Position numbers and translations under genes: made by a program. Source: Neckera pumila (taxonomy: Eukaryota; Streptophyta; Bryopsida; Hypnales; Neckeraceae). From it: DNA of 64,000 nt. The notes below the pieces were generated by a model. That model was not told where the DNA came from. It saw nothing but the letters and a program-made list of their open reading frames with translations, and did no database searches. Where the stretch lies: assembly GCA_963969595.1 (NCBI GenBank), contig OZ018408.1:558001-622000 (forward strand), in the 5' to 3' direction. How positions within the stretch are numbered: the first letter of the stretch is position 1; the number at the start of each line of letters is the position of its first letter. Below, one piece after another: positions 4,335-47,090 of this stretch.

Positions 4335-4388
4335 CCAAAGATTCCATTACTTTTTATTCTAAAGGTTTAAGGCAAACACTACATTTGC

Positions 4389-4883
4389 CTATGGGCAAAT
4401 TAGTGCAAAAGAAGGAGTTAAACGATTCTTTTTTTTAGAACCTGTAAATTTTGGGATTAAAGGAGTATGTGCTAGATTTATTGGACCATAGGTGAAAATG
4501 TAGGTTTTGTGTTCTATTCTCTGTCCTGTCCAACCAGCATATGCTCTAGGAACTTTAGGATTTGTTAAATACTTTAATTTAACGTATTGGGCAAATAAGT
4601 ATTGCAAATGGAAAGGTAAATATAAATTCCCGTTTTTTACCAAAAATCCTTTAGTTGGATTTCCGTTATCCCAAATTTTGCTAAAAACTACCCTTTTTAT
4701 GTCTATCGGTAATTGCTCAATGAAATTTGTAAGTTCAGTATTTCCTATGTATTTCCCACAAAGAGAAAATCCTTGTCCAAAATAGGCGTTTTTGTAGTGT
4801 CTATACAATGCCCTAAATAGGCAAGGTCCAGAAAAATAATCTTCTATGATTTCTGGAACTTCCCATGGAAATAAATATCCCAT
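4389..4883 (-). CDS. Extra ORF upstream of gag, 164 aa, unknown function
   Basis: This is an uninterrupted ORF with ATG at 4883, lying 54 bp upstream of gag on the same strand. It begins MGYLFPWEVPEIIEDYFSG and contains a Tyr/Phe-rich middle and a basic tail. I see no zinc knuckle, no transmembrane segment and no family I recognise. Being intact while gag-pol carries stops is notable but may be chance given its length. By position it corresponds to the extra ORF found upstream of gag in Tat/Ogre-type elements, but I cannot show homology. Confidence 0.55.
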   Translation of the reverse strand: MGYLFPWEVPEIIEDYFSGPCLFRALYRHYKNAYFGQGFSLCGKYIGNTELTNFIEQLPIDIKRVVFSKIWDNGNPTKGFLVKNGNLYLPFHLQYLFAQYVKLKYLTNPKVPRAYAGWTGQRIEHKTYIFTYGPINLAHTPLIPKFTGSKKKNRLTPSFALICP

Positions 4884-4911
4884 TTTGATTCATTTAGAAA
4901 AAATTATTTAG

Positions 4912-5457
4912 TTAATAAAAATTAAAACTATCTCGATGAGCTTTGCTTTGGGAGGGATGAAAATAAATCAAGGTGTTCACAATTGTTCGTATACAAATTA
5001 ATTCTTCTAAAGTTATATCTAAATTTCTTAATCTAGGTAAACCTTTGATTGTATCAAAGAATTCTTGGTCAAAATATAAAGTAGGTTGGGGTGGAATTAT
5101 AACAGGGGTTTTAGGAGTTACAACCGTATGTTTTAAACAAATGGCTTCTGGGTTATCTAAGGCTTGTTTCTTGAAACAAGTCTTCTTAATATGGCTGATT
5201 TCTCCACAGAAATGGCAACATTGTACATTTCTAAGTTGTTTTAGTTTTTTGGTAGTGTATGTCCTACGTTTTCTAGAGTTAAAGTATTTGTAACTTATAG
5301 GTTTAGGTGAATTTGAAAAAGGTTTCCACCTTTTGTTATCTATAGGTCTACTGTACGGAATTACAGGGTTGGTTGGTTTTGGTATAGTTTCTTTTGGGAA
5401 CACGTTTGCTAAAACCTCAATTATTATATCCTTCATAAACTTCCCCTTTTCTCCCAT
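4912..5457 (-). CDS. Extra ORF upstream of gag with one CCHC knuckle, 181 aa
   Basis: The ORF starts with ATG at 5457 and ends 28 bp before the next ORF on the same strand. It has a basic N-terminal half (repeated Lys/Arg/Pro, about residues 40-85), then a canonical zinc knuckle CHFCGEISHIKKTC (spacing C-x2-C-x4-H-x4-C, near residue 85-100), then a hydrophobic C-terminal part with FDTIKGLPRLRNLDITLEEL. A single knuckle after a basic stretch suggests nucleic-acid binding (inference). It may be a second Gag-like protein or a split-off nucleocapsid module. Confidence 0.55.
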   Translation of the reverse strand: MGEKGKFMKDIIIEVLANVFPKETIPKPTNPVIPYSRPIDNKRWKPFSNSPKPISYKYFNSRKRRTYTTKKLKQLRNVQCCHFCGEISHIKKTCFKKQALDNPEAICLKHTVVTPKTPVIIPPQPTLYFDQEFFDTIKGLPRLRNLDITLEELICIRTIVNTLIYFHPSQSKAHRDSFNFY

Positions 5458-5537
5458 TTTGGGACTAACATATGTAAAATTTGTTCTAAGTAATATTTCT
5501 AGAATAATTTAGTCTAAATTTTAATTATTATAATACT

Positions 5538-10468: not shown

Positions 10469-10484
10469 CACTATAAGAAACCCC
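10469..10484 (+). repeat. Left terminal inverted repeat of the giant transposon
   Basis: The 16 bases CACTATAAGAAACCCC start directly after the CTA target duplication. The match to the right end stops after 16 bp. Confidence 0.85.
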
Positions 10485-10756
10485 TGGTTTTTTTTACGTT
10501 GGCATCAAACAAGTATGTTTTTTCAGAATACCAGCACAAATATGACATTGGATCCATGAGATGCAGAACTCAATTGGATGTTCCAAAAAACATGTAAATA
10601 TCATAGGCAAAACAAATTCATGTCATGTTTGACAGAAACGTTCTTAGAGATACCAAAAAAATATAGGCGCGCTTTGAACAACATCTAAGAAAATACAAAC
10701 ATGCCATGTTGGCAAAGGGTTTCAATTTTATTGCAAATAAGTTATTGAAATTTATT

Positions 10757-11915
10757 GTCTGTTGAGGTAAAACATTGACCATAAGTAAAAAACACAAAAA
10801 AAGGGTAGCTCCTTGGCATCCTTTTTCAAAAACCTTATATGGGTGGATGGAAAAGCTATTAATAATGCATTGTAGCATGTATACTATCCATAAATAAGTG
10901 TTTTCATGCTTCCAAGTACTTCAAAATAATATACATTTCATTGTTAAATTTTTGAAGATTCATTTTTTGACTGCGTTGTAAATGAAATTCTTTTTTTGTT
11001 GTAATTATCGTTTATATCTTTTCCCAAACAACAAGGAATATTGGAAACAAAACAATGATTTTGCACTCGCTTCCATTGTGTGCTGTACTTAATCTATTCT
11101 CCATTGAAGGCTTCAAAATAATTGGATTGCAAATAGATTAGAAGACATTGCAATCTTCATATTATAGCCATGTTCAATATTTCTAGCATAAATTCTTCTT
11201 TGCTTGTTTTGAAACAATTTTGCTATCATCTCAAAATTCTATGAGGCAATTCTTCTTCTATAAACTAAGATTTTGTCCAATTTCATTATTAAATTATTCT
11301 TGAGAATGTAGTAAAGTAATAGTATTGTAAAAGTAGGTATTCACCTTCTACTATGACATCAATGACATTTAAACTCAAAGTTCAAAAGGCACCACATTTT
11401 GGTGTTGTCAAAACTTCGAAGTGAAAAAACTTCTAAACTTCTCATTGTTTTAATTAGTATTTTTAAAATGATGTCTTCTTGAAGTGTAGGTTTAGCATCA
11501 AACATTTGATTTTGATGATGAATAATTATAGTTTTTCAATTCCATATTTAGTGCAAGGGTGTTCATTGCAAATCTTCATTTTCTATTATTGAAAACTCTT
11601 TGAAATTAGCGTGAAGTACAACACAATACATCTTAGAGGGAAAATCACAATATATATTTGTCTTCACAAGATGTTTAGTTCATATAAAGAAACTAAGGGT
11701 ATTTTTAGAAAATATATTTTCTTTTGGACCACCATTTTGGATTTGACATGGGACAAGAAGAATTATCAAGAGACTACAAATGAATTGCACACTTTAGAAA
11801 CGTCAGCAAAGTTTAACAGCATGTAAGTTTCTAGAAATTACTAATGGCTGAGGTAAAACATTGACCATATGTGAAAAACCTAAAAGAAGGGCACCCATAT
11901 GGCACGCTTTTAAAA
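10757..11915. repeat. Direct duplication near the left end of the transposon
   Basis: About 80 bp at 10,757-10,840 (containing GAGGTAAAACATTGACCATA) recur at 11,838-11,915 with a few changes. Between them there is only AT-rich non-coding DNA. CACTA elements often carry subterminal repeats; whether these serve that role is unknown. Confidence 0.5.
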
Positions 11916-12011
11916 GAAAGGAACATGATGTGGAATTTGAGTGACATGGCATCCAATGAGGATGAAGTGGCATGCCACATCAGCACACTTTGACAATGTC
12001 TAAGAATTAAC

Positions 12012-12745
12012 CCCTAATGATCCAAGGAGGGTATCTTTCAAAATAGGCCAAAACTATCAACATCTTGATCAAGTTTTTGCTCAAGTTTTCTTGAGATCAG
12101 ATAGAATGTAACCATAGGATCTTGAAGTTAACATTGAAATTGAACACTTCAAAAAATTTCAGATTATTTGACCACACGATTTAGGAGATGTTTAATTTTG
12201 AAGTTTTTCTTGGATCAATGGAAATATAGGACAGCATACTTTGAAGGAGCATATATTTGTAGGAATATTTTGAAATGATGAAAGTTTGTGCTCAATGAAA
12301 TACAAGAGAGTTGAAAATGTACATGAAAATTTTCATTACATTTTAAGAATTTCACAATTCATGTTCACGCTTGCAATGCATGGTGGTCATTGAAATTTGA
12401 GTAGTGTTTGCAAGAGAAAAAAGAATGGGATACTTGTCTTCTCCTTGAACTCTTTTTGAGAAAGATCTGTCTTTATGAGGTGGGCAAGAAGCACATTGGT
12501 TGGCTGACACTTTAGGCCAGGCATGTCCAAACCAAATATAAAAAAACAAGTTGTAAACTACACTACACCACTTAACTTGAAAAATTCCACAAGGCAGAGT
12601 TTAAGTTGGAAATTGATTTAATCACTACCATTAGATTTATATAGCAGTTTTTTTCCTACAAAAAACTTTTAATTTTCAAAAAACTCAATATTTGAAAACG
12701 GGCAGCTCAAAAAACGGGGGCAGCAACCAGAAAATGGTCACTAGG
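12012..12745. repeat. Internal copy of the flanking host repeat
   Basis: 12,012-12,280 aligns by eye with 8227-8500 (shared AGATAGAATGTAACCATAGG and GGATCTTGAAGTT). 12,550-12,745 resembles the tandem unit at 8612-9070. It is either a nested insertion or sequence captured by the transposon. No ORF is supported. Confidence 0.55.
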
Positions 12746-13046
12746 ATCATTAGGGTTAACATTGTTTTTGTAGACGTCAACTAAGACATCAATTGAGACA
12801 TCCTTTGAGACATCTAGATGCTTTTTGCAATGTCAACCAATATGGCAATTTAGACTTGTACATGTTTTTTGAGACAACATCATGTTCATTAAGATGTTCA
12901 TATTTGAAATTTTGCTTTTATTTCAATTTTCACATTTTATAAATCCCATATGCTTTGTCTTCTTTCCTACCACTCACTTGTATATATGGCTTGTCTTCTC
13001 CTATCAACATACTTACAATGAAATGGCTTACAACAAAGTTGCCAAT

Positions 13047-13269
13047 ACGATGTATCGTGTATGGAATATAATATATGGTATACAATGTATATATATGTAT
13101 ATGGTATATACTATAAGGTTTAGGGTGTACAATGTATAATGTATTATATATGATTTATAATGAAAAGTGTATGGTGTATAATTTATGGTATGTTCTGTAT
13201 GGTATACAATGTATTGTGTATGGTGCATTATATATGGTGTATTTTGTATGGTGTACTATGTATGGGGTA
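13047..13269. repeat. TGTATGG/TATAA-rich imperfect tandem repeat
   Basis: Variants of GTATGGTGTATAATGTAT recur over about 220 bp. Open frames on both strands here are artefacts of the repeat. Confidence 0.7.
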
Positions 13270-13860
13270 CATCCAATCTAACGTCTAAGTTGATGTTGTA
13301 AAATGTTTGAACATCTACGTTAACGTCTCAAAAAACATCTCAATAAACGTCTTGACATCTAAGTTGATGTCGTTAAAAATGGGGAATGATGAGATGTGAG
13401 CGTGGAGCGGCGAGTGGCGAGCGGGGAGCAGGGAGCGGGGATTGGTGAGTAGGAATAATAAAAAATTGAATGGGAAAAAAAAATGGAGAAAATGGATGAA
13501 AATTTGGTTGAAAGTTGATGGAAATGTGGGCAATTTTGTCTCATAAAAAATCTAGAAATTGGGCTGAAGATTGTAGATGGACAAAGTGGATGAAAGTCTG
13601 GGGGAAAATGGATGAAAATGATCGAAAGAAATGGATGAAAGTAGTTTAAAAATGGATGAATGGGATTTAGGATATGGATGGAAGTCGTTATAAATATGGA
13701 TGAAAGTTGCTCGCTGTAATGGATGAAAGTTGGTGGAAAAATGGATGAAAGATTGGATGAATGTGGCAAGCAGATTAGGGTGAATAACAATAAAAAAATG
13801 GATGAGAAGTGAGGGAGAGCATGGAAGAAACATTTAAAAAAAATCTATTCAATTGCAAAT
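13262..13860. repeat. Left arm of inverted minisatellite pair
   Basis: The arm contains, in order, a block with CGTCTAAGTTGATGT words, a G-rich block (13,390-13,447, repeats of GGAGCGGGGA type) and many AATGGATGAAAGT units. The same three blocks appear in opposite orientation at 31,300-31,740, so the pair forms a long-range inverted repeat inside the transposon ends. Confidence 0.7.
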
Positions 13861-15550
13861 GGATTAAGGGCCTTAGTTCAGACCCCTATTGCATTGTATT
13901 AACTTCTTCTATGACCGTGAAAGGGTCCTAAAACCGTGGATTTAGGCATTAGGACACATTTTCAATTTCACAATCATTTTGGTCCACTGCAATGTGTAAC
14001 TAGACAACATAAGATGAATGATGTTTTGGTGCTAGAAAAGTAGACTTCGGCCATGGAATAAAGAAATCACTCTACATCACCTTCATCTATAAGAGAGTGA
14101 GACAAGCAAACAGAATAGAACTGAATCAACACAGGGAAAACCACTGCAATTTGAAAGATTGATGGAGCATGCAATGTTGTTGGAGCTTGAAATAAATGTA
14201 CTGACAAATTTTGTTTTCAAACATGCTCTCTTTCTTCTGCTTCTGCATCAAAGTTTGGGTCAGCATTTAGAGCATTTCTGTTGAGTTCAGCGCTGCTACA
14301 CCTCCCTTCTTTGTGAAAGTGGCTTTCATAAAGCTTCTGCATGACCGTTGTGTGTAGCAGCGCAAGAATCATTATTCTCTGCATGATCATTATATTCCTA
14401 CTAGCTCACCATCATTATGCATTTCCTGCAGCAGACGACAAATTCATCCATGCCAACCAAAAAATTTATGAAATGCTTATTCAATCAACCACAATTTCAC
14501 AAGCATGTATTTTGAAGGTTGAGAAAGCAAGCAAGTTACAATTTTAGAAGTGTTCATCGAGGAACACGTCATTTGGCTGAAGAAGATGCATGATGAATGT
14601 CAGTAAGGTGTTGAGCGGGTTGGATAATGATAGTAGCTTTCATCACGGATAAAAACATTTGAGCAAGAATGACATTGAACATTGCAAATTTGAGCCAAAG
14701 AGACAATCCCTAATACAAAAGGAAAATGAATTCTTGTAATAGGATGTCCACTACTAGTATTCAAATTACTATAGCGCTATTGAACAATATGTCAGTGGAA
14801 GGACGCTCTATCTCTACTATGAGATATCTAAACTCTACAATACAAACATCGTGAGAACTACATGCACGTTGGGATTTTTAAGGGTGTTGAAGAAAGCCTT
14901 ATCCTCTTCAATTGGCAAAAATGCACAACATGTGCCACAAAGGGATAAGTGGATCATAGATCACCTTATCTTCTTGAATATCAATAAGGATAAGACACTT
15001 GCCATGCAATCCTAAGAATGAAACAATACCTGGCATCAAAGATAGCCTTCCCTACTTCAAAAGCCATTACTAGGTTATATGTGGTACTAGGATTGGATAA
15101 CCCATTTCCAATAACACCATCTTTGCCTAGGTGGTACAAAGTAGCACGTTGAAATCAGAATATATGAAATGAAGCTGATGTATAAGTGATACTACTGTCA
15201 TAAAGGTTGAAGATGATTCAAACACAAATTAAGGGACACCTTGCAAAACGTGACTCCGGAACTCATACCTCGGTACTCAAACATGGCTAGGAGGTCCCAT
15301 GCAAACATCAAAACAAAAATCACAGTTTGTTAGTCAATCACAGAGGTTTAAATTCAATAAACGAATTCCTAAATATTGACAGGATGGTGCAAAAAATAGC
15401 AGGCTAGAAGTCTTGCCCCATTTCTGAGACTGCATAATCCAATAAAAGAACAAGAACACCTCAAATTCAAATACAATAAAAAAGCATAGTCTTGGTAAGA
15501 AGATTCACAGAAAATATCAAAGTTCAGAACAACAGGGAAGGAGACATACA
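13861..15550. other. Non-coding stretch downstream of the MTase-like gene
   Basis: It includes a fragment resembling the Athila-like LTR (GACCGTG pair, 13,908-13,945). Around 15,030-15,090 the minus strand reads LVMAFEVGKAIFDA, which resembles the end of the methyltransferase-like gene (VLAFEADKAVFDA), so a degenerate partial duplicate may be present. A 68-aa ORF at 14,341-14,547 with a hydrophobic start has no other support. Confidence 0.35.
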
Positions 15551-16154
15551 CTACGCTGAGTTAGAGCTACCCTCAGTTTCTGACAATTCAGAATTTGTCT
15601 CGATGGCAAAATCATGCACGAATTCATGAACACGTGGATCTACCAAGTGGGCCCTTGAAGTTGGCCGAGGTTTTGCTGTGACAAAACAACGAGCAATCTC
15701 CTCCCCATATACGGGTAGTTCATACGGTTTTGAAGGGCTAGGAAAGAAACTTGGATTTGTAAAAAAAGGAAGATGTGTGGACGTCTTTACTTCCTAGGGA
15801 CGCCTACAAAACCATATAAACACATGTCAGATTTATTGATGTTTACATAAGGGATGGGGACAAATAAAAGGAGCTTAAGGAGAACCTTACTTATTGCATC
15901 GAGATGTTGGTATGATATGTTGCACCGGTATGTCCTTGTCTACAAGCTCTATAGCGGCACTAGACGTGCTTGCTGATTTAGGCTAATAAATGATAGTTGC
16001 GTGCAGCCTTGGAGCAATAACAGCGTCAAAAACAGCCTTGTCTGCTTCAAATGCAAGAACATGGCAACGTGTGGCCCGGCAAGCTTGAATGCTTGAACCT
16101 GTCATCAACCAAAATATGAATAATGATCCAACCAAAAAATAATGTTCATTGTGC

Positions 16155-16260
16155 AAGTCCATGAATGTAAAATGAGAGGAAAAAAAAATTACCTATAGTA
16201 GCTGTGTAGTCCATGAATGTAAAATGAGAGGAAAAAACAGAATTACTTGTAGCAGCTGTA
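16155..16260 (-). repeat. About 52-bp tandem duplication across a splice donor
   Basis: Two copies of a unit containing CCATGAATGTAAAATGAGAG lie head to tail. Each includes the end of the exon coding DCTAAT or its echo and a following donor-like GTAAT, so the exon/intron junction of the methyltransferase-like motif I is duplicated. Confidence 0.65.
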
Positions 16261-17939
16261 CAGTCCAGAATTACAAACCCCGGTTCAGAGCAGCCTTCAA
16301 TAAGCATCTGCATGAATTTGCGAGCCTTTTCCCGAGGTCCTTGCCACGATATGTTGCCGTTCATATTAACATCATCTTTGTTTGTAAAATTCTGAAGGAT
16401 GTTGTCCTGACCCACAATAACCCCCACGGCAAAGTGCAAGGGAACAAATTGGAATGGAAAATCCTTGTCAGTCTTCAATCCACATTCCTTCACCAAAATC
16501 GATATAGAGAACCTCATTGTCTGCAAAACACATAGTTAGAATCCAAAAAATTGTAAATAGCTTCTAAAGAGTAACATGAAAGATGCTAGAATGTTCCTTA
16601 CTGTCTTAGAAGGATCCGTAGGCGATGTCAAGTGCAGGTGATTCATGCACAAGTAAGTGTCAAGTATCCGGAATCGATAAGACTGGCAACATCCAAGAAT
16701 CTGGCTCCTGTAAGGAAGAGAAGGAGACGGGTACATGATGAGTAGGCCGCCATTATTGTGCAAGTATTCTTGCGCAAAATCAAAGACAAGCACTAAGAAG
16801 TCCAACTTGAACTCGTTCCATTTCGGAATGGGATTTGGTGGAGCTGAAATGGTGGGGATGTGGAGCCCTTCTGGAACATTGACAATAATCAAATCAACCA
16901 TGGCCTTAGTAATGAGCTTGCCGTTGAAGTAACGGTCCTTGTCACCTAAATGTTGTAGAAAAAAATTAAAAAAGAAATTGTTAGGAAAATAGATGTGAAG
17001 ATGAATATATGGGGGTTAATCTAATGAACTGGGACCAAGAAAAATATAAGTCAAATGATCACTACAATATAATGAATGTTGCGAATTAATTGACAAACCA
17101 TGGCTAAGAAGGCCACAACATTGGCGAAGGCCTTTTGATTACTTGGAAGATTGCCTAGCAACAAGTTTAGAATACACTCGTCAATGTCTGGAACTGGAGC
17201 CAGAATTTGAACAGTTGGTGTCAATCCATGCACAAGCCTCTTTTTAGTCAAGGAGAAGCCAGAGGAGGTGTCCTTAATGTCTGCTGGACTCGCGGCCGGT
17301 TCCTGAACTGAGGTCTCCGCCTTTCTCTTAGTACCCTTCTTCTTAGCCTTCTCTTGCTCTTTCACCTGCTTGGTAGCAACCTTCTTGATTTTTGTATCTT
17401 CGGTCTTCTTTTTTGCTTCCTCCCATTTTTCCTCCTTCTTCTTGTTAGTGGCTTCTCGCTTAGCTATGGCCTTGGCTCGGGCCTCCGGATCTAAACCTGC
17501 AAACTTGTCAAACTCTGGATCAACGTCTGTGGATTCCTTCAAGGACTTGAAGAGAGCCTCCTCTTCCGGTGGAGTCGTTCCGAAGTTGCACTCCAAGTAC
17601 CAAGGTCATGCTTGAAGATGTAGAGTGGTCCACTTCTGCAACTGAGTTGCAAAAAACATGCAGTCTAAGGAGGATGGAGACAACCATGTTGTGTGGAACA
17701 AAGGTAAATCCCCCTTCTCGATAGCCTTCTTTGTGTACAACTCCAACTTGAGATACCTATAAACAACAATGAGTTAGGACAATCTTTTTTTGCAATACAT
17801 TGATATTACAGAAATGAAGTTCATGCATACTTAATGTACATGGTATCAAAGAGGGTTAGAAGCATCTGCACTAAACAATCAATGATTCAAGAGTAATGAT
17901 TGACAATAAACTTTGAAACACTTAGCCACTCCACCTTGT

Positions 17940-18141
17940 GTCTCGGTACCAAGACACCACCCAAGAGAGGTCAATTCATGCATACATATAGGAGTGTGCC
18001 GTGTAGGTAGCTCTCAGAAATTTCTAATTCAAGACATTTACGTAGGCGAGGGGGATTTCATGAGGCAATGTCGCTCATATATGGATCCAAATAGGGAATC
18101 TCGGGGCCGAGACAACTCCCACATGGGAACAGGCCATGCAT
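17940..18141 (-). repeat. Two bipartite palindrome units in an intron, reverse orientation
   Basis: Palindromes GTCTCGGTACCAAGAC (17,940-17,955) and ATCTCGGGGCCGAGAC (18,098-18,113) are each followed by exactly 20 bp and then YCATGCAT (17,976-17,983 and 18,134-18,141). This is the mirror image of the units in 21-25 kb. Both lie in the intron between 18,242 and 17,763. Confidence 0.7.
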
Positions 18142-21077
18142 AACAAAAAGATAAATTTTACCTAATTGAAAGCATGAAATGAAATTTGGATATTGATACA
18201 TGGAATCTTATGAACAAGGAAGCATGTGCGCAAATTTTACCTGTAGATCAGGCGCTTTATGGCACCTGCCGCACCTCTGAAATCCTTAAATGGTTCCGAC
18301 TTCTTGAAGGCATCAGCTCTCTTGAACATGCCCAAATACGCCAGATCCCAAAGCTTCATTCTCCAATCTTCTAGGTATTTGGGTAGGATCTACGGCTCAA
18401 AGGGAACCGCCATGTTGATCGGGATATTGTTAGGGCAAATGACGGACTCAAACATCTCCATGGCCATTTCCTCCAGCTGCACAAAGAAGAATATGAGTCT
18501 CATAGATCAAGTGATTTTGAAATGATAATAGATTGCATCAAATGAAGGTAAACCATTATGAATGTTAGTGCGGAATCTATAACTGCTTACCCCTTTGTAC
18601 CAACATGCCTCAACGATGAATAGCAATAATCTATCCTCATTAACAGGTCGTGGTGGGAATTTTTGAGCCTCCCAAGTAGGACCAGAAGAATTCATCCACT
18701 TCAACCACTTGACCTTGTATACTAAACTTGCATTTGCAATGGAAATCATCTAGAGCTTTTCTAGAGTTAACTTCGGAACAGCAAAGAGACTCCAATGTCT
18801 TTCAATCTGCCATCAATTGTGTCACCATATTAGCTACCACATCTATATTGGAAACAAGAAGTAGCACATCTCTTGGTCTGCAGTCATACCTCTTTTATAA
18901 ACTCTAGACTATGCTTTGGGTCTGCAACAGCTACAATCTTCAAAAGTTTTTTGCGACAATTAGCAGTGGACTCCCTAATAGAGGACCTCATTGCCATCGC
19001 AACTCCTTCAGCTGTCACCTCATTGCTTGGAGTATCTTCCTTGTACTTATGGACAACCTCATCAATAGCAGCGGATATGTCTTGTTGAAAATGCCCTCAC
19101 ATCATTTTATATACCAAAATGGATTGGTGAGAAAGCAAGTCATGAAAAACATGAAATAAAAAGAAGGACAAGGTTACCAATAATACCTTGAATATAAATA
19201 AAGTGAAGACCGACAAAGGCATAGAGTACCATTTACTATAAGTACTCTGTTTGCATATAAGTATTTCTTCAAGGCTAAGGAGCTCCATAAACTTCTTGAG
19301 CTCCATGACCCCGTACTTTTGCACTCGGTATAGGGTATGCACAAGATTTGTCTTTACATGTGAGTTCTCTATTTGCTTATAGTTAGAATGTCACAACAAA
19401 GTTAGAACTCTTAACAAATGTATATTCATTTTAGTACTACAATACGTCTTCAAAAGAAGAGTGAATATAAAAATCTTACTTGTTGATGTTGTGCATTGCC
19501 TGCATGGTTGCCCCTATGCGGTTTCTGGTATCAAGGACGATGGAGTCCACGCAAATATGCCACTCCTTCTTTGTAGGATGAAGCCGCATGATGTGGTTCA
19601 TCCAAGCAAGACGTCTGTGATTTCCATCACAGACATAAAACTTGTAGTCCACAAGGTGCTTCAGGACAAGTTGCGATTTTAGTTGCACGTTGAATTGGTC
19701 ATTGACTAAATTCCATAGAGGTCCCCATTCCTCTTTCTCTGAATCCGAGAACACCACCATTTGGCCTCCTTCATTTGCTATCAAGACATAAAATACACGC
19801 GCTTCCTCCTCATAGCCGCAGCTGAACTGATTCTCAAGCAATGTCAAGTCACATGAAAGAGTGGGGCGAACCATTGGCATGGGCACTAACTGGTACAGAG
19901 GAATCCGCATCCGTGACAGGTCCAAGGTGGTTAACCTCAAACTTGAGATCATGGAGACTGTGTCCACTGTCTGCGAATGTCTGATGTCATCCTCTATGTA
20001 GCTCTAGGGAACACTGGGAATGTGAATCACTCCACCCTCATCCATGTCCGTCTCTGAAACAACATCTGGTTGTTCACCCTGATCTATAATCGTTGACATT
20101 GTGGACGCGTCTATGTTCTGCAGTATGAACAATATCAGAATGAGTTTGAATAAGATTCAGGAATAACATGAAAATTCAATGCATCTGAGATGAACGCAAT
20201 GTAGTGTATTGGGAAACTCTTATCCCAAAGGCAGGCCATCTTAGATAGCAATATCATTCCATCAGAAAAGAAATAACATAATATGCAATATCTCATAGTC
20301 CACAAATGCATGCCTCTGAGAGAGCACGGTAGTATCCACAACAGAAGATGAACACATCATCACCGGAATCAAATCTAGAAGTGACTTCTGCAATGTCTTG
20401 CTCACATGTGCAATACTTGGCAGATGATTGAGATACTGATAGAACTTGAACTCTTTCATCTAATCCTATTGAGGTGCAATTTGAATGTGGGAGGGAAAAG
20501 AATCCCTCTCTATACATATCGTCAATGGCTGAATCTAAGTCCTGGATTAAGCCGTCAAGGCTTACCCTAGGATTAGGTGCGAGAACATTGGGTGCAATAA
20601 TGGGTGGAACAGCTGACTGCGCTTGTACCAATGGAACCTGAGGATTGATTGAGTCCTTCGCCAACAACAACTGAGGATCAGTTGCATCCTGCACTAATGG
20701 CAGTTGAGGGTGCAAAGCATCTTGGGCCTCCAAGAGCTGAGAAACAATGGGAGGTCAGGGTTGACTGGCGCCACCTGGAAATCAATATTGCATATGAGAT
20801 GTTGGCATCCAATATATAAAATTGTATGCAATAATGGGATGGATATTACACTATAGGTTATAGGCATACAAAGAAATGGCTATATATGCTTGTTGCCTAA
20901 CTCAGTTAATTCTATCTCGGTCCAGAGACATCATCCTGATTTGCTAAACTAGATGACAACTCAACAAATGAATTAGGTCATCTCAAATGATAATTCGATT
21001 CAAAGCAAACACTTGTGAAATCCCCTAACTAAAATGATTCCAATAAAACTACAAACTGAATAAGAAATTTGGTCCTC

Positions 21078-24000
21078 ATGCATAGCCACAAACACAAGAG
21101 TAGATGTCTTGGTCCCAAGACATCTCTACTACGTGGCAATGTATGCATCTTCATGTTACTTTCATAACCCTAAATGATATCCTTGACTATCCAATGCTAG
21201 GACCTAACGGTCTGACTTCACTTCTGGGTCGAGATCTGCACGGGACTCTTCACGACTTGATGCATAGACTACGACCCAGGAACAAGAGTCTTGGTGCCGA
21301 GACATCTTCTTCATCTGGCAGACCTATAAACATTCTATGACTTCTATGACTCCATATACTAACAAGACATTTCAATTTCTACTTCATTTAGTAGTCAAGG
21401 ACATGGGGATTGAAAACATTACACAAAATGGAAGCTTTCAGAATGCAAGAAGTCTTGATAACATGTGCATAACCTGGGATCTCTAAACCATCTCTTGGGG
21501 CCGAACCATTAACCTATTCTACAAAGCCAAAGAAGAACCCACTGACTCTCAATCGAGGGGACATACTCAAAAATTGATTTTTCAAGACCTACAATTGCTG
21601 AACTCATCAAACAGCGATTGTTTTTTAGCATATTCACTTGAAATCTCCTATTGTTGATGACATATGACTTAAACCACTATACCGCATGCATACCCTTTGA
21701 ACAAATACTTTGTCTCGGGCCCGAGAGCTCTTCTTCTACTAACAGGCTATGCAAGAACAACATCCATCGCTTCTACCAAAACCGTCAGCTGGCATGATTT
21801 TGTCGTCATGAATTTGAGGAATCATGCATACATCAGGGACAAGAGAACTTTGTCTCAGCCTCGAGACAACTTCTCAAGGAAGTATCTCATGATACAAGAA
21901 GTGCTTGAAAATGGATATCCTACCATTATCCATTGCAAAATAATCAGATTCTTCTCCGTTTCTCAATACGTAGCAAATGACAAGAGTTTCACATGTCGAA
22001 TGTTCACTAGCAATTATTGAGATTTGTGCAATCAAATATCCAAAGGATAAGCCAACATCAAAGATTTCAATATAGTAAACCACCAAACATTGAATACCAA
22101 ATAACGAGACCTAAATTTTGTGACCATGGCATACCGTTCTGGTCAATTGAAGAGTGTGCCATATCATGTCTATGCATACCTCCTTTCTCTTATACCAGTG
22201 TCTCGGTACCGAGACCACATCTTACAGTAGCATTTGTTAACAACTTTTGAGACCTTAAACCTTGGACAAGGTCTACCTCAGGAATTTATTTGCACCAGAA
22301 TGAATTGAATTTCCTCATTTCATATTTGGTTAGTTAGAACCGGTTCCCGACTATATGATAACTACCCTAAGGAATCAAACAACCCAATTCAAATCTGCGC
22401 TAGCCAGTAGCCATCTGAGTTAGTTAATGTCAGTTATCCTGACAATCGAATCTCATTTGTATGTAGAAGAAGGATGACTCGTATGCATAATGAGAGCTAA
22501 CTACAAGTTAGTCTCAAGGCCGAGACTACATTTTCATCGCGAAGGCCTTGAACATTGGGCCCTTGAAATTTCATTCTATGTCCTAAATTGGGATCCTCCA
22601 TCCTAATTGTCGATCAAGAAGATTGACAACATTGAGAAGAGTTTGGTTTTTCTCAAACACTGCAATCACGGAGATACTACAACGGGAAGCAATGTCTGGC
22701 TAGACCTTAGTTCTGCTCTATTCAATTTGATGAAATGCTCAATGCTTCACAACCCATGAACGACAACTATTTTTGCAGACTCATCTGTCTCGGCCCCCAG
22801 GCTCATCTGCCTCGGCCCCCAGACTCATCTATCTTGGCTTTAAGACTTAGTCTCCGTTTAGCAGGTTTTCTTCCATGGAGAGAAAAATCCAAAATGTTCA
22901 GACTACAATACAAGAATCTTAAACATCCCGGAATTTTTAAAACCAAAGTGATCAACTTGAATTTTAGTCTATCAGCTTCAATTACCAATATCAATTAGCC
23001 CCGGTATGTTGCTTGAAAAGAGGAAAGGCAAACTTGCCCATCATAAACCAACATTCAGACAAGAATTGGCGTTTAGACAGGAACAATCATTCAGGCAGGA
23101 ATGTTGACTCATTGACTGACTGTGAAGAAATCAGAATTGGAATTTTGTATCTTGGTCCCAAGACCTTATTCTGATCGGACACGCCATGCACAGCCGACGA
23201 CCAAACATAATCATATCTAGTTGCAAGTATATAAATCTCTTCATTTTGGTGCACCAATACAGATTACTATCAGCCAATCACGATAAAAAAAATTATGCGC
23301 ATTTTAGTCTGTTCAAAGCCAAGCACATGTTCAGGAGATGTGCGACTCATCTTAAACTGATTAAATGAAGGAAATTTTGAACGGTTTGAACAACTTCAAT
23401 GAGAGACTTCCTTAGCCAAGCATATGTTCTAGAGATGTGCGACTCATCTTAAACTGATTAAATGAAGGAAATTTTGAACGGTTTGAACAACTTCAGTGAG
23501 AGACTTTCTTATTCTTGTCGTCAAAGATCACCCCTATCTGTCATGCAGTGCACTAGAATGACATTAACCTCGGATATTTGTAGTATCATAAGAGACTTTG
23601 AATCAAATGATACCGCAAGTTATAGTTCAGAATCAGGTAATCCTAATCTGAATTATTGGGACTGAGGATATAATACTAAGTTAGCATCTGCAAATCTGAA
23701 TATCAATAACTATAGTCGTCTCTAATTTGTGCATAACTACATTACAAGAATGGGATGTCTCAAGGCCGAGACAATATCGATCAGTATCCCTTTTGGTCCA
23801 ACAAGAACCTAATAGGGTTCATTATATTTGGAATTGGAAATAAAGAAGCTCATCAACTGCAGTTTTGGTCCCCAATATGGGTTCTCCAATCCCGTAATCT
23901 TGCGACTAAACAAAAATTCCGATCATAAAAATATGGTAAGCTCTTCGAGCATGCATACCTGCCGTCTCGGTGAAGGCAGTCTTGGGGCCGAGACAATATG

Positions 24001-24673
24001 CCAGACTCTCAATTCTTTACAGCAGGACACATATGCCAAAATAAAACACGGACTGCCTCTCAATTTTGCATCATGAAATCAAGCAGTTGACTCACAATTG
24101 TCTGTTTCTCCGGCCGCATGATGTGCAAAATTCTTGGAATTAATAGGATCACATTAATGTACTATGAAGAACCAAAGTAGCAAATTCGGTCGTATCGGTC
24201 CGGAGAGTTCTCTCGCTCATGTATCCTTAGAACATTGTCCATTAAAAAATCAAGTAACCTTGTGTGGTATTCATTATTCCTTTGGACGTTCGGATGAGTT
24301 CATAATCGTGAAGTTGCATGTGTCACCGGCCTTTAGTGCATACAACTAAACTTGTGAGTGCTGTCTTGCCCCTGAGGCAAGTCACCAGTCATACATGGCT
24401 TTGCACAAGTGTACTAAATTGCTTCATTACATTAATTTTATTCTATATATTGCCGCTAGCATATCTAAAAGCTGACTAAATTTTAACCCTGCCCAACTTT
24501 GAGGCCCTCAGGACACCATATTCTCATCCCGCAGACACCAAACAAAAATGAAAATCACTCTGCGACAATAGGTTTATTGTCAAAATATCACACAAATCTA
24601 CTCTCTTCCAACCTCCTTCTCCGACAGTTATGCATACCACCGCACCAAGTTGTTGTCGTCTCGGCCTTGAGAC
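21078..24673 (+). repeat. Array of spaced ATGCAT + 16-bp palindrome units
   Basis: Palindromes at 21,106, 21,288, 21,492 (degenerate), 21,712, 21,852, 22,200 (perfect GTCTCGGTACCGAGAC), 22,511, 22,787/22,809/22,831, 23,149, 23,757, 23,979 and 24,658. Nine or ten have an RTGCATAN box upstream with a 20-bp spacer (18 bp at 21,712, 19 bp at 21,492) although spacer sequences differ; 23,149 is paired in reverse with a 19-bp spacer. The array probably lies in intron 1 of the minus-strand gene. Outside the giant transposon I found no copy in the window. Function unknown; binding sites for an element-encoded protein are the simplest idea. Confidence 0.8.
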
Positions 24674-24679
24674 AACACT

Positions 24680-26680
24680 TCAGTCCAGGATGCCTCCCCC
24701 TTCCGAATCCAAGTCAAGACCAAAACTGGCTCCCGGACCAAAATGCCAAAGCACCAGCGATGACAACATCTCGTAACTCTCCAGCGTTTCTCCAGCATCA
24801 GGGCATGAGCCAAAGTTTAGATATGGAAAATTTTACAAAAAGTTATCCTGAAGCTCGAGAAAGAAACTGAGTACAAGCAAAGTCTGTATTTGATTTCTTA
24901 AGCTCGAGAGTTTAGTCTAGCGCATAACCACGAATTGCCCTTTATCGTTCTCATTAATTCTAGCGCAAATATAAAATATGCATTCGAAATCAATGGATAC
25001 AACAAGGGACAACGCTGGAATCCATAAACCATTTCACTGCTGGCAGTATATGCTTGTAACTGGACAAGCAACGATTGCGACAAGTATACAAGAAATGTTG
25101 TGATCCCTTAAATCGCAAATGGATTGGGTCGAGTCTGGTTCCAAGGACACCGTCGCGAATTGCCCACCCTTGAATATGGATAGAATACTAGAGAAAATCT
25201 GAGATACACTTCAACAGTTAATTTGCATCCCATGTGTTCTAAATCAAACCAACTGTCTTACGCGAAAGAGCCTCTGTCAAATCATCAGACAATGGAGAGA
25301 AACATTTGTCGTACCTCATTCATGGTGGTATCCTCCTCTTTGGTTGTTGCATCCCGTTCTCCGTCTCCCAGGTTTCTACGACACGGACGAAGGTTTCGCG
25401 ATATGTCAAAACCACTTGCTATACAAAGTCCTGAATTCCAAATCTCCCCCATCCAACAGCTGAGCATGCATCAAAATTCAAACGCAAGGATGCAAAAGAC
25501 GTATTGGCAAGGTTGGCGGCGCGCTAAGTTCGGTTCTGGCGGTGCTTGCTTAGGATTCTTTTGCGGCGTCTAAGTTGTACTCGGGTTAAGTATTAGAAGG
25601 GACAAAGTCGGGTTTTGTTAATCGGGTATGTGGTTTGGCCAAGTCGGAATTATACTGGTCCTGCCGGATATAGGGTCTGTTTCCGTTAAGCTGGTTCTCC
25701 GGATTCATTCACATGCCAGGTGCCAGGACCGGGTTTGCCAAGCCGGGCAGTGGTTGTTTGGTCCAGGGCGTGGTATCATCTTGTGTTGAGGAATTAGGTC
25801 CATTATACTGGGGCTTGAACAGAGAGGTTACCGGGTAGAGGAGTTGGTGTATAAAGGTTGGGTCAGATCGTTGTGTTCTAGGATTATTAGTTAGTTACCA
25901 TTATGTTATAATCTGATGCTATTTCATAAATTCTCACACCTAACAGACTATAGCCTTAATTTTGTAAGGAAGATAAATATAACAGGAACTGAATCCCAAT
26001 TAAATGTTGGAGATTGTTTTCAAATGTAACTTGTTTAGATGGACATATAATCACATCCTCAAGGAAACGGCGGCTGTTCATGCTGGCACGAATGAAGATA
26101 TTGGCCAGATTGTGAAGGTCATGCTCTCCTAGTTTAATGCTATAGCGTCAGTTTGCTATACTCGGTTTATTGACCACTGACAATGACGTCATCACATCTA
26201 GTAAACTTGAGGGCTTGCAGCTTGTAGAAGCATTTATACGTGTAATTCCGAATTTGAATCTGACCTGCATTTACTTCACCATCAATACAAGAGTGGTCAC
26301 TAAATGCTAACTTATCACACCTAGCCCTAAACCACTGAATAAACTGCATCTCTAGACTTCTCTAAATTTGAATGTATTCCTGTTTGATATGGTCTAAATC
26401 ACCATGTAGTTTATATGTTCTCCGGAAATGGCATTCATAATGTGCACGAAATGGGTTCCAGAGTCATTTCTATTTGGTCTTTTGACGATGTGACGTTCTG
26501 ATGTTCCAGAGATATATCTTGTAGCAGCATTTGTGTGATAGTGCTAATTTGTGAGATCTTTTTAGTCTAGCCTAGGCATGATGGAATTCCAGAACTTAAT
26601 AGTTGTCAGGGTAAATGGTGAGGGAGTATCGTTGATGTTCCAGATAGGTAAAGATGGATTGGCAAGTGTTCTTCTATTCA
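24680..26680. promoter_or_regulatory. Region between divergent genes, probable bidirectional promoter zone
   Basis: 25,324-26,681 separates the presumed first exon of the minus-strand gene from the first transposase ORF. 25,570-25,860 is G-rich with repeated CGGGT words, unlike the AT-rich surroundings. A degenerate palindrome (GTCTGGTTCCAAGGAC) is at 25,133-25,148. No convincing TATA box can be assigned by eye. The promoter role is inferred from gene orientation only. Confidence 0.3.
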
Positions 26681-28697
26681 ATTGAGTCTTCAATTTCAAT
26701 TTACATCAAACTCAATCCATATTGACGAAGATATATATGATAGCGACTCAGGGGTACTTACACATACTATAGGTCAGGTTTCTGCTTCTTCGGTTGGAGA
26801 GGACATTCTTTGGAACTTGAAGCCAGGCAAATATTGGGCTCATGGGCTCTCTAGATACAAGCATGAAGCTTCCATAGATATACCAACACCCCATTGGTCC
26901 TCTTCATCGTTGTTTAAGATGCCACCTTTGATTCATGTCAAGATAGAATCTAGTCCCCGGAATGTCACGATCCTCAGTTCTGACTCAGACATGAGTTCTC
27001 TTGAACCTCCCATGGATACTAAAACATCTTCAAAGGTGACAACATTTCCATCCCGTAGTAGTCTGAAGTCACTGGCAATGGAGATCCAAAATGACAATAT
27101 TGGATCTATAGCATCTATTATTCACTGCTTGAGAGGTTTACAGGACTCGAAGGGGTGTAGGAATATATATTGTCGAAAATTAACTATGACATGATTTGCA
27201 TTGAGAGAGTTTCTGACTTGCCTCCTACTTTTAATGGCGACCTCATATTTGAGTTATTGGCGCTAGAAAGTGGGTACTCTCCCTCCCATGCAAGGCAAAT
27301 GTTAGGTATGGATAAAAGATACAACGGCCATGTTTGGTCTAAAACTGTCACTACGAACATCACTAATTGTATGGGATTGTTGTTTTGTACTTCTGTCTGT
27401 GTAGGACATCTTAGATGCATGAACGGAAACTGCAAGTTCTTGAGCCGGGTACACCAAACCAAAAGTGTGAATGAATTGGAATGGGAAGGATTATGTCCCT
27501 CGGCGCTTGATGTGGGACATATGCACCCTCTCGGGTCAACATTGGTTTGCAAAATTTGCAAGGAACCTCCAAGTTGTATTGCGAGGTGTGCTATGAGAGT
27601 ATACTATGTCGTTGGCAATTTAAAGATGACCCGGGCATTTGTTCATTTGGGCACTCATGAGCATCTCATTAAGGAGGGAGAGCTAAGAGACATCAAGAAC
27701 CTTACTCGGTCTCTTATTGGGCAGCAAATGGAGAGGACACCGACCGCGACGAATTCACCTATTGTGTTGGAGGCTACAAAAGAGTTGCTACAAAAGAGTT
27801 CTCTTGCGTCCTAATGGGAGTTTGCCATAGACACTGGACTTTGCTGAGCTAGTACCGGTACTAGACAAGTGCAAGTACTTCAGCTCTCCAAGTATTTGAA
27901 ATGAGGTAACTTCTTTTAAGTACTTAAGGAGATATGGGGTCATCAATAGCATTACTAAGTTGAGGGGTTCTAGTACTTGGGCATTTGTTCAGAAGAGCAA
28001 ATTTCCCGGTCAAGGGACTAATGTTGATAAAGTATTTGTGTTCAAGATGTCTGAAGTAGTTCCGGGAAGTAGAGTGGACTTAGTAAAGCGCATGCAAAAG
28101 GGCGGTGACCTGGAAGATGCATGGATAATGTTTAATCATGTAAAACATGTTAAACAATGGACCACCATGGCATGCCATGTCTATGACTCTTCATACTGTC
28201 AAGTTATGACAATCGCTATTTGCGACATGCAATCAGAAGATTGTTTAGTCCAGATTCTGTTATGGAAAATTTGAATTATGTTCTGGAGAAATTTGAATTA
28301 TGTTCTTGAAAGACACGGTGTATCTAAGACTCAGTTCAAGGGATTCAAAGTTGACAGTGCTCAAGCAAACTGGAATGCTATAAGGATGATTTATGGATTG
28401 GGGGACATTGGCGTGCCAATGGACAACCGGAAAAAAACTTGCCTCTTCCATTGGACTCAATTGATGGAGAAACATACAAAGGCTGAAATTCGCAGTGATT
28501 TACAAGATCAACATCGACTCCTCTGTAAACAATACAAAAACGTTGTTTTGCCAGAGGAATCTGAAACACGTTACTTGGCTATCAAGGCTTGGTGGCTATC
28601 ATTGGGTTCTACAATGGAAGAAAGCTTGCATCAACTAGAGTTGTGGCTCTCATTTTGGAGTTTCTGATATCGGCAATGGGGCAGCTTCATGCATCTT

Positions 28698-29342
28698 GTA
28701 AGTGCCTTTTCCCAGTGACTAATTTAGTAGCATTCTTGCTTATAAATAACTACAACCACTCCGGAGGTTCTCTTGTAATCCTCTAATGCTGGTCACACTA
28801 ACTATGCTGTAATGTTTATAATGCTATGCACTAATCTCATAACAATTGATGCATGCAATGAAGGTCAATTCAGAGTCAAATGTGTACAGATGGATGCATG
28901 CAGAGTTATATGGTCCAATCTTCAAAATTGCGTTTTATTGGGCTCGTGTCTATTAGATCATTTGTTAAAAAATCCTTGCATGCGTAGCCCGCCAAAAGAG
29001 GCATCTCGGGGCCGAGACTCATCTCTCAGAGGCTTTCACTATAAACTTTATTTTATTTCCAATATGCGATCAGGATGTCATGAGGAACATCTTTTGTGAA
29101 GCTTATGCATAAAAAGAGGTCCTCCAATTGTCCTATCAGTGACTACTGGATAGCAATGAATGGCTTCGCCATAACCCTTTTCTTTAACTATCTATGTGAC
29201 TGTTGTGGAGTGCTCATTTGTAAGAGTTGATGTTCAGATAAGACACCATTAATTCACCAAATACTGCATGCATAGCACTTTCTAGTATCATATTTTCATG
29301 CTTCCCTTTAAGCATGAAGGTTCTTTCACATTCTTTTTGCAG
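28698..29342 (+). other. Intron of the transposase gene
   Basis: The donor CTT|GTAAGTG and acceptor TTCTTTTTGCAG|AAT join two conserved-looking coding stretches in phase 0. The intron contains one palindrome unit (29,003-29,018). Confidence 0.7.
28976..29018 (+). repeat. Bipartite palindrome unit in the transposase intron
   Basis: ATCTCGGGGCCGAGAC at 29,003-29,018 is preceded by TTGCATGC at 28,976-28,983 with a 19-bp spacer. It lies inside the intron 28,698-29,342, so this unit too is intronic. Confidence 0.65.
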
Positions 29343-31299
29343 AATCTCAACCAAATTGAGCTGGCAGAAATGCCTTCATGCAATCTGGTGGAGACGGTAC
29401 ACAACAAGTGGCTTCAGCAATCTGGTAATCATGGCAACAATTTGTACATAGCCACTGTTGACGACTTCGTAAGAGCTTTCATGAAAATGGTCAGGTACTA
29501 CCAGTATCTAAAAGGAAACGAACCCGGAACGAGACCTGGGAAGGAAGAGCTATTACTCCGAGTTGCTCAACGTTCTGTTGTGCAAACCAAAAATCCAAAG
29601 GTACTTACCCAAGCTATATCAAGCGTTGCAGGTGTTGAAGAATTTGTCAATAGGAAGCCTCATTTGGAAGGTGAGGAAGTATTTGGATCCCAGAAGCAAA
29701 AGGCAAACATGCCATTGGGATGCGAGCATGATTCTTATAGACTAAATAAGGTTAATTTTTCCTATCCATGCATCCAAAAAAGATCTGGCAGAGCCTCTTC
29801 AAGTGTTCTCCATTTAAACACAATTCCAGAAGACCTGTCACCTAGGAAAGAAGTAGATTTTTTGAAGGCGATGGAGACTAAAGAGAATTTAGGACAAGGG
29901 AGTACCCATTTATCTTCACATGTGACAGCAATTCAAGAAAGTGACTGTGACAAAATGGAGTGGCACATAGCAAGACTTCCAAAGGCATCTACAAAGGCTT
30001 GTTTTGCATTACAAGCAATATCAAAGAAGAAGTGCATTGCAAAGATTGTTCAGAACAACGTTGCCACAGCAGCACCCACATATACAGGTATGATGGTGAA
30101 TTACAAGAAGAGCCAGAATGATAGGATGCAATTCTTCTTTTGCAATGACGACATTGAAAGGTGCGTGAAGGGAACAAAACAAAAGTGGGTATTGTCCCGT
30201 CCACTTATTCCTTCCATTTGGCCAGTTAAAATGGGCACTGCTCTTTCAAAAGCAGAAATTTAGCTTTTGAAGGTGCATGATTCTGACTCCCACAACGTGA
30301 ATTGATTTCACCACACAGGCTATTTGGCGGAGAGGCAGAGATAGACTTAGTTTCTGCATATTATGTTCTCTCATTAGCAAACGAACATCCTACTATCTGA
30401 GTAGGGAAACTTATTTGCCAAAATCCGAAGGCCCCCACCACAAAACAAGCAAACAATTGTGCTTCTGCCATGACACTAAATGCTCGCATTCATCGAGTGA
30501 CCATAGTGCCTCACCTGGGTTTTGGTTGCATTGTCTGTTTGAATTCTAGAGTGGAGCCAAGGTCTCAGCAATATATGCTTACAATTTCATTGTTTCCAAA
30601 CTGCGCTTGCCTTTACTTCAAAGAAATGGCAACAAAAGCTTTAGGGAGGTGAGGACAATGGGCAAGTTGCAAGCATTTATGTATTGTTTTCACAGTCATT
30701 TGCAACCTGCAACCTACAGAAGACGTCTTCACTCATTCTCCAGGTTTTAGTTTTAATGAAGTGAACAAGTGCTTCTCAGCGGGATATTGAATAATCTAGA
30801 TTTGAACTAGAGGTTGGTTCTGTTGTGGATCACCTCTTCATGTGATCTACTTTATTCAAAATGAAGTAAAAGTGAGACTAAAAGGGCCACTACTACCATT
30901 TGAAATAAACCACTAAGATTTTCAGATACTTTGTCCTCTTACAAATTCTTTATACAGGCTTCTGCTATATTTGATATCCATTTTGGGACATGAGGTCTTT
31001 GAACTTTCAATTTCTTAATATTGTAGTCTAAAGTATTTCAATGCTTAACTGTATCCTTGAAACCCAGAAATGATTGTCTACGACCTAGATCCAATAATGC
31101 AATGTGAAAGCACAATCACCTTATATCCAAATGTATCAACAAAGTCACAATCAAAAGTACAATTTAAAGAAGGTGTTTTATGTCCCCTTCTTCCATGTCC
31201 ATTCTCTTATTTCCTTTAATATAAACGCATCATGTCAATTTTCCATTTATATTTCCCTCCACCGACATCCAAGGTTTGTCATCGACATTTTTTCTCTCG

Positions 31300-31740
31300 T
31301 TTTAATTTTTTTGTTTGCACCAACTTTCATCACCATTTATCATCCACTGTCATCACCATTTTTCATCCCCTTTCGTCTCCTTTCATCCACTCTCATCACC
31401 ATTTTAAAGCATTTATTCCATTCACTTTCATCCACAATTTCATCCATTTGTCCATCCACTTTCATCCACATTCATCCAATTTAGTCATCCACATTCACCC
31501 ATTTCATCCATCCACATTCTTTGACTTATCGACATTTATCCAAATATTCACTTGATTTTTTCAATTTTTTTTCCTAAAAATAATAAAATCTATGCTCCCC
31601 GCTCACTAATCCCCACTTGCTGCTCCAAGCTCACGTACTAGCAACGCTCCATTAAAAATAAGATTAATATTCTTGTAGACGTCTAAATTGACGTCACTAA
31701 AAACAATATTAATGTTCTTAAACAATATAACGTCATGTGC
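31300..31740. repeat. Right arm of inverted minisatellite pair
   Basis: CATCCACTTTCATC units (31,320-31,550), then a C-rich block (31,590-31,640), then GACGTCTAAATTGACGTC words mirror the left arm at 13.26-13.86 kb. Open frames rich in His/Phe/Ser here come from the repeat. Confidence 0.7.
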
Positions 31741-32002
31741 CACGTCATCTCTGGGTTGGGCGAAAAAATCCCATGTGGTGTTGCCCATCCACGTGGCGCT
31801 TACGTGGCTGCCCTATGGAGCACTTTTTCCAACTTTTTAGGCTACATTTTTGGAAACGTCACTCTAAAAATAAAGCATGTTTTTTCAAATTTAGGTGTGT
31901 TTTTGTTATGTCAATCTTGACGGAGTTTGTTAGACATCAAAGGTGGCATGCATGATGTCAGCAAAAAAGTACTATCATATTTTTAGCTTGTCCACAAAAA
32001 TG

Positions 32003-32018
32003 GGGGTTTCTTATAGTG
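32003..32018 (-). repeat. Right terminal inverted repeat of the giant transposon
   Basis: This is the exact inverse complement of the left 16-bp terminus, followed by the second CTA duplication and then GGACTA, as in the empty site at 48.87 kb. Confidence 0.85.
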
Positions 32019-35757: not shown

Positions 35758-35972
35758 CACTATAAGAAATCCGTGTTTCTTTGACAAGCCTGGATTTTTT
35801 GTGACGGATTTTCTTAGACATTTATATTGACATCTAGCTGTTTTTATGTTTTTATGATGTTACATTGGATATTATTTTTGACATAAAAATAACTAGATGT
35901 CAACTTCCATGTCCAAAAAAATCCATCACAAAAATTTGGACTTGTCAAAAAAAACGTAGGTTTCTTATAGTG
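35758..35972. mobile_element. Foldback CACTA MITE (215 bp) inside gag
   Basis: It begins CACTATAAGAAATCC and ends with the inverse complement TTTCTTATAGTG, flanked on both sides by CAA (35,755-35,757 and 35,973-35,975), the 3-bp duplication expected for CACTA elements. The whole left half pairs with the right half over about 90 bp. It shares its terminal 12 bp with the giant transposon and is probably moved by a related transposase. Confidence 0.85.
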
Positions 35973-46865: not shown

Positions 46866-47090
46866 CACTATAAGAAATCTGTATTTTGGGGGATGTTTTC
46901 ACTATTTTTTAAAACGCATTTTTATGAACATTATAGTTGACAACCCATGTTTTCATGTCAACATTAATGTTCAATAAAACATTTTGATGTTTTATTGAAC
47001 ATTATTGTTGACATTAAAACATGGGTTGTCAACTGTAATGTCCACAAAATTGCGTGAAAACATCCTAAAAAACATGAGTTTCTTATAGTG
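46866..47090. mobile_element. Foldback CACTA MITE (225 bp)
   Basis: It starts CACTATAAGAAATC and ends GTTTCTTATAGTG; nearly the whole sequence folds on itself around a TTTG loop near 46,985, with arms of about 105 bp. The flanking triplets (ACA and ATA) match at two of three positions. It is the same family as 35,758-35,972 and shares terminal bases with the giant transposon. Confidence 0.8.

Follow-up and report, generated by a model that had tools for sequence, protein, structure and literature searches.

Background

What purpose is served by a rigid arrangement of short boxes and palindromes that is repeated many times within a plant transposon, and what would recognize it? This question is raised by a stretch of 64,000 nucleotides (nt) from the moss Neckera pumila (contig OZ018408.1, positions 558,001 to 622,000; hereafter, the window), in which units of a TGCAT-containing box and a 16-bp palindrome recur inside a large Mutator-like element with two divergent genes, designated here as the m-gene and the p-gene. 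A previous reading of the window, made from its letters only (the sequence-only reading), had described these units. In the present study, we examined their layout in the window, their distribution in the genome, and the genes that accompany them. We found that the layout remained constant while the surrounding sequence changed, which makes a protein docking site very likely. Judging from sequence, the site is probably a cis-acting platform for a regulator encoded by this 18-kb Mutator-like transposon family, in the manner of the VANC target sites.

Results

Units in the window

Seventeen palindromes with up to three mismatches were found in the window, versus 0.33 expected, and all of them are located between 17940 and 29018; the units described by the sequence-only reading are thus real. 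The bipartite pattern of box and palindrome occurs exactly six times, versus none in shuffled sequences. TGCAT is located exactly 22 nt to the left of the palindrome in eight of the 17 units and 22 nt to the right in both reverse units near 18 kb. Further boxes are found on the left at 20-21 nt (two units) and on the right at 21 nt (three units), and only one other TGCAT, at 86 nt, is present within 100 nt of any palindrome. The spacing had been given as exactly 20 bp, a value counted after an 8-bp box that corresponds to 22 nt between TGCAT and the palindrome; it was correct for both reverse units, but the forward units that share it number eight, not seven. The unit had also been described as two-part. 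Box and palindrome are indeed its components, but a mirror-image box is often present on the other side, so that the consensus layout is TATGCATA (box), N20-21, and GTCTCGGNNCCGAGAC (palindrome), followed in many units by another box, inverted and at equal distance. Between 22776 and 22841, a 22-bp sequence is repeated three times in tandem, with half-decayed palindromes inside and without boxes.

Geometry of the site

To describe the geometry, we used 155 sites (14-bp core with up to two mismatches) from the window and 20 other stretches of 10 kb; a control with reversed halves gave nine. The sites were sorted into 48 groups with unlike flanks, which were treated as sequence-independent. TGCAT was found 21-23 nt from the core in 31 of the 48 groups, versus a mean of 1.2 and a maximum of 6 for random positions in 2000 trials (up to four positions per group, where real groups hold up to 30 sites). 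Identity between groups was 0.77-0.78 in the palindrome, 0.28-0.34 in the spacer, and 0.26-0.27 in the outer flank, in agreement with the earlier statement that the spacer bases are unrelated. Among 153 main-family sites (including a lone site, L005), the box was present on one side in 85, on both sides in 37, and on neither in 31; when the test was repeated for two-base bins at other distances, it gave 0-3 sites. The centre of the box is 32-33 bp from the dyad of the palindrome, or about three helical turns, so the two would lie on the same face of the DNA; the full three-part site spans about 75-80 bp. The constant distance combined with a free spacer, seen in the 31 groups and in the diverged subfamilies described below, supports the suggestion of the sequence-only reading that one complex may contact both parts.

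Genome-wide distribution

We scanned the genome (339.5 Mb, 18 contigs) and found the exact palindrome at 39 sites (one for the reversed control) and its 14-bp core, TCTCGGNNCCGAGA, at 414 exact sites (three for the reversed control). A search for TGCAT-N12-32-core, of the kind proposed by the sequence-only reading, gave 161 matches versus none in the control; in 100 of these, the gap was 22 nt in 58 and 23 nt in 31 (89 at two adjacent distances), and the remaining 11 were spread over seven other lengths.

We inspected the neighbourhood of each of the 39 exact sites, in the window, in the 20 stretches of 10 kb, and then in smaller stretches. Thirty-eight are located inside one element family, as expected from the claim that the motif is confined to the giant transposon. 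For 23 (including those of the window), the surrounding stretch matches genes of the window element by tblastn, and 13 more lie in stretches with gene matches or with DNA similarity to gene-matched stretches. L030, L033, L034, and L036 were assigned to the family through DNA similarity alone, and L017 through units in common with L022; L040 adjoins an m-gene found in its fetched neighbourhood. The palindrome as a host-wide motif was rejected because only one of the 39 exact sites falls outside the family; family membership of the 414 cores was determined for part of them. Part of the cores without an exact TGCAT carry drifted boxes. Four further core arrays were sampled, of which L045 and L046 resemble L017 and L022.

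This confinement bears on the possibility that the units are sites for a host complex of B3-type transcription factors (an RY box, CATGCA, with an inverted repeat of the auxin-response sequence TGTCTC) captured by the element. TATGCATA and TGTCTC resemble motifs of B3 proteins, and the half-sites, which are preceded by T in 50% and begin with G in 67%, agree with such an origin. However, ARF proteins need a TGTC core, and this core is often broken, with C as the first base in 18% of the half-sites. The restriction of 38 of the 39 exact palindromes to one element family, and box letters that vary by element subfamily within one host, also speak against host sites, and we consider this explanation improbable. 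CpG decay as the sole source of the half-site variation was rejected: C to T at the CpG amounts to 20% but G to A to only 7%, so tolerated variation is also likely.

The carrier element

The carrier of the motif is a Mutator-like element nested in a CACTA-type element (Table 1). In comparisons with other copies, DNA similarity breaks off at the position equivalent to 31649 in five copies and at that equivalent to 13381 in four. The C2 copy has a perfect 10-bp duplication, GCCCAAATCC, and the window copy one with 9 of 10 matches (both sides were checked in two copies); this length is within the 8-11 bp of Mutator-like target-site duplications. A CACTA identity of the carrier, despite the CACTATAAGAAA ends and CTA duplication, was rejected, as these nine copy ends stop at 13381 or 31649; the CACTA-type element is thus the outer one.

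The outer element measures about 3.3 kb once the insert is removed. Two short elements at 35758-35972 (215 bp, with a CAA duplication) and 46866-47090 (225 bp) also have CACTATAAGAAA ends, and neither holds palindrome matches. Short end pairs, CACTATAAAAAA and TTTCTTATAGTG, are located beside diverged copies (L016:8082-8298 and L020:8351-8548). Repeats of short ATGGATGAAA-like units are present near both ends of the Mutator-like element (13480-13850 and 31317-31510), inverted to each other, and also in L014.

Placement and arrays

Recognized coding matches make up 28% of the bases examined, and none of 154 sites falls within them. The sequence-only reading had placed all units in introns. This holds for three of the 17 window sites, two in an m-gene intron (17940 and 18098) and one in a p-gene intron (29003), but the other 14 are located between the outermost recognized coding pieces of the divergent genes. 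Each of the 20 other stretches, 10 kb in length, contains 1-14 sites (up to three mismatches). A predicted array at the 5' end of the m-gene was found in three of four flanks (L025, eight sites; L026, eight; L028, nine), and the fourth, L027, had none; L023, which adjoins L027, is without the ParB exon and may be interrupted.

Some arrays are tandem, with periods of about 170, 138, 120-145, 284, or 622 bp. The periodicity of about 170 bp in several arrays would suit nucleosome phasing or a satellite by-product without specific binding, but such an origin is highly unlikely, given that the period varies from array to array while the geometry within the unit is fixed and the spacers are free.

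Subfamilies and drift of the box

Protein identity to the window copy is 43-56% for L022, 46-67% for L024, and 55-73% for L020; in L016, one m piece is 35% and one short p piece 79% identical. These diverged subfamilies retain the centre and the distance, and the letters of the box drift in register. In L028, beside the m-gene of L024, the palindrome is kept and the box is GCAAC or GCAAG exactly in the GCATA register; in the same register, the box is GCAAC in L043, GCAAG or GCATG in L016 and L020, and YCATA in L017, L022, L033, and L034. In L043 (200-3600), a second partial palindrome (e.g., CCCGGTGCCCGAGA) is located directly upstream of each main palindrome.

In L016 and L020, the whole unit, including the spacer, is by eye a near-perfect inverted repeat. 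Together with the intronic position of part of the sites, this could point to an element acting in RNA, as transcribed hairpins that give small RNAs or affect splicing. However, the main-family spacers inspected by eye show no complementarity, a box at a fixed distance with a free spacer forms no RNA helix, and 14 of the 17 window sites are upstream of the recognized coding pieces of both genes; a role in RNA is accordingly very unlikely.

Proteins encoded by the element

The m-gene product has a ParB-like domain and a degenerate N6/N4 methylase-like region, both of which had been noticed in the sequence-only reading. In an AlphaFold model of the L008 exon, the former is predicted to adopt the fold of a ParB-type N-domain, and the first 13 fold entries are all ParB, Noc, KorB, or PadC. 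The region of methylase motif I was matched by PF01555 (E=0.0017) and NF010253 (E=0.0076), both below cut-off. Sequence searches of Pfam, NCBIfam, and PDB gave nothing above the curated cut-off for either protein, although most members in two of the profile scans came without a listed cut-off. Isolated weak matches of the element proteins, among them DUF7841, DUF6728, KMP11, and DndB, were dismissed as noise.

The p-gene product is a candidate Mutator/IS256-like transposase. In the case of the L010 exon, the single Foldseek match with E<=0.001 was the ISCth4 transposase (E 3.9e-4, probability 1.00, template-modelling score 0.27, root-mean-square deviation 15.7), a weak match to a model with a predicted template-modelling score of 0.46; no Pfam transposase match was found for this protein. 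A transposase-like protein and a fixed geometry, which suits a multimeric complex, could mean that the units are transposase binding sites for assembly of the transposition complex, like the subterminal repeats bound by TnpA. The positions of the sites are central and intronic, however, and the window copy has none (up to three mismatches) within 4.5 kb of its left end or 2.6 kb of its right end. Such a role is thus quite doubtful.

Other features of the window

Coordinates are summarized in Table 1. Outside the element, open reading frames resembling retroelement gag with CCHC knuckles (by eye) were noted on the minus strand at 1626-5508, and a host dual-specificity phosphatase gene at 43995-44999, for which the best named relative comes from another moss, Ceratodon purpureus.

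Table 1. Features of the motif-bearing element and its surroundings (window coordinates)
Feature	Position	Strand	Basis or remark
Motif-bearing Mutator-like element, 18,269 bp	13381..31649		DNA similarity of other copies stops at both ends
Left 10-bp target-site duplication CGTTAAAAAT	13371..13380	+	9/10 match to right flank
Right 10-bp target-site duplication CATTAAAAAT	31650..31659	+	Flank comparison
Outer CACTATAAGAAA-bounded CACTA-type element, 3-bp CTA duplication, hosts nested element	10469..32018
m-gene, multi-exon, outermost recognized pieces	15554..20754	-	tblastn conservation in other copies, fold, PF01555
ParB-like exon of m-gene, CDGNHRR motif	19476..20003	-	Homologue alignment; model of homologous L008 exon
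p-gene, outermost recognized pieces; Mutator/IS256-like transposase candidate	26566..30649	+	tblastn; weak L010 fold match
Unit in m-gene intron, palindrome 17940-17955, box right	17940..17983	-
Unit in m-gene intron, palindrome 18098-18113, box right	18098..18140	-
Array, 14 palindromes, between two divergent genes	20914..24673
Complete symmetric unit, box - palindrome 21106-21121 - box	21078..21148
Unit: box, spacer, palindrome 21288-21303	21260..21303	+
Unit, box either side of palindrome 21712-21727	21687..21753
Unit: box, spacer, palindrome 21852-21867	21824..21867	+
Unit: box, spacer, perfect palindrome 22200-22215	22172..22215	+
Unit: box, spacer, palindrome 22511-22526	22483..22526	+
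Unit: decayed palindrome 23149-23164 (3 mismatches), box GTGCATG right	23149..23190	-
Unit: box GTGCATA, spacer, palindrome 23757-23772	23729..23772	+
Unit: box, spacer, palindrome 23979-23994	23951..23994	+
Unit: box, spacer, palindrome 24658-24673	24630..24673	+
Unit in p-gene intron, palindrome 29003-29018	28977..29018	+	Box unrecognizable as TGCAT in other copies

Discussion

The constant distance with a free spacer, the symmetry of the site, the arrays upstream of both genes, and a box that drifts from subfamily to subfamily together point to a binder that is encoded by the element and co-evolves with its target. A single protein or complex would bind from one side of the DNA, touching the palindrome together with one box or both, and the array may load many copies of this binder at the promoter region shared by the two genes. 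The loaded array would then control expression of the element or block silencing by the host. We infer that the m-protein, with its ParB-like and methylase-like regions, is the leading candidate for the binder, and that the transposase is the second.

Several observations weigh against this proposal. L005 is a lone exact site, the sole one outside the family; an exact TGCAT at 12-32 nt accompanies no more than 161 of the 414 exact cores; and the arrays in L043 and L044 gave no gene match within the 3.8 and 1.8 kb fetched, respectively. The main-family sites without a recognizable box include two mostly boxless intronic groups, and tandem units of one array are not independent of each other. 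In the m-protein, no DNA-binding domain was identified beyond the ParB N-domain fold. The catalytic motif IV of DNA N6/N4 methylases is (D/N/S)PP(Y/F/W); DPPY is absent at the corresponding position, where DVPEG is found in eight of 10 aligning copies, NVPEG in the window copy, and DVLEG in L008.

By analogy with bacterial partition, the ParB-type protein might be a nucleotide-gated clamp that would load at the symmetric three-part sites between the genes, spread together with the altered methylase domain, and mark the element against silencing. We regard such a parS-like system of a transposon as rather unlikely. CTP-gated spreading of ParB is the subject of PMC8299390, PMC7053999, PMC8367383, and PMC11790492. 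The moss element shares noncoding 16-bp palindromes and a predicted ParB-type N-domain with ParB/parS and KorB-type systems, but its carrier is an integrated eukaryotic element. The central palindrome is unlike the bacterial parS consensus. In parS of the P1 plasmid, A and B boxes, two kinds of sequence, are contacted by one ParB. The moss site also has two kinds of box, but the sequences and spacing differ, and nothing indicates shared descent. TnpA of CACTA (En/Spm) elements is likewise an element protein that binds a repeated short subterminal motif. The moss element similarly has a repeated short motif and putative binding by an element protein; however, its sites are central, its target-site duplications measure 10 bp, and the CACTA ends are those of the outer element.

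The regulator platform that we favour has its counterpart in the VANDAL elements of Arabidopsis, which are Mutator-like, and their VANC anti-silencing proteins. VANC targets are a short motif that is concentrated in noncoding DNA, occurs in tandem repeats, and diverges rapidly between related families (PMC5735166, PMC10398659). The moss element, too, has a transposase gene (candidate) and a further gene, and its motif is noncoding and often tandem. In contrast to the 9-bp VANC motif given there, the moss site is rigid, often symmetric, and three-part. The second moss protein is ParB-like and methylase-like, and no Pfam match to DUF1985 or DUF287 was found in the m-gene pieces scanned. The moss element is also 18 kb long.

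In the library searched, we found no paper on eukaryotic ParB transposons and none on giant CACTA or Mutator-like transposons in mosses. The means by which transposons evade silencing, and by which a protein distinguishes its own element from other genomic DNA, are open questions; in the literature covered, sequence-specific escape is represented by one Arabidopsis group. With the present finding, a plant transposon would join the carriers of ParB-type domains. As several subfamilies with fixed geometry and drifting box letters are present in one moss genome, the co-evolution of a binder and its target may be directly testable in this family.

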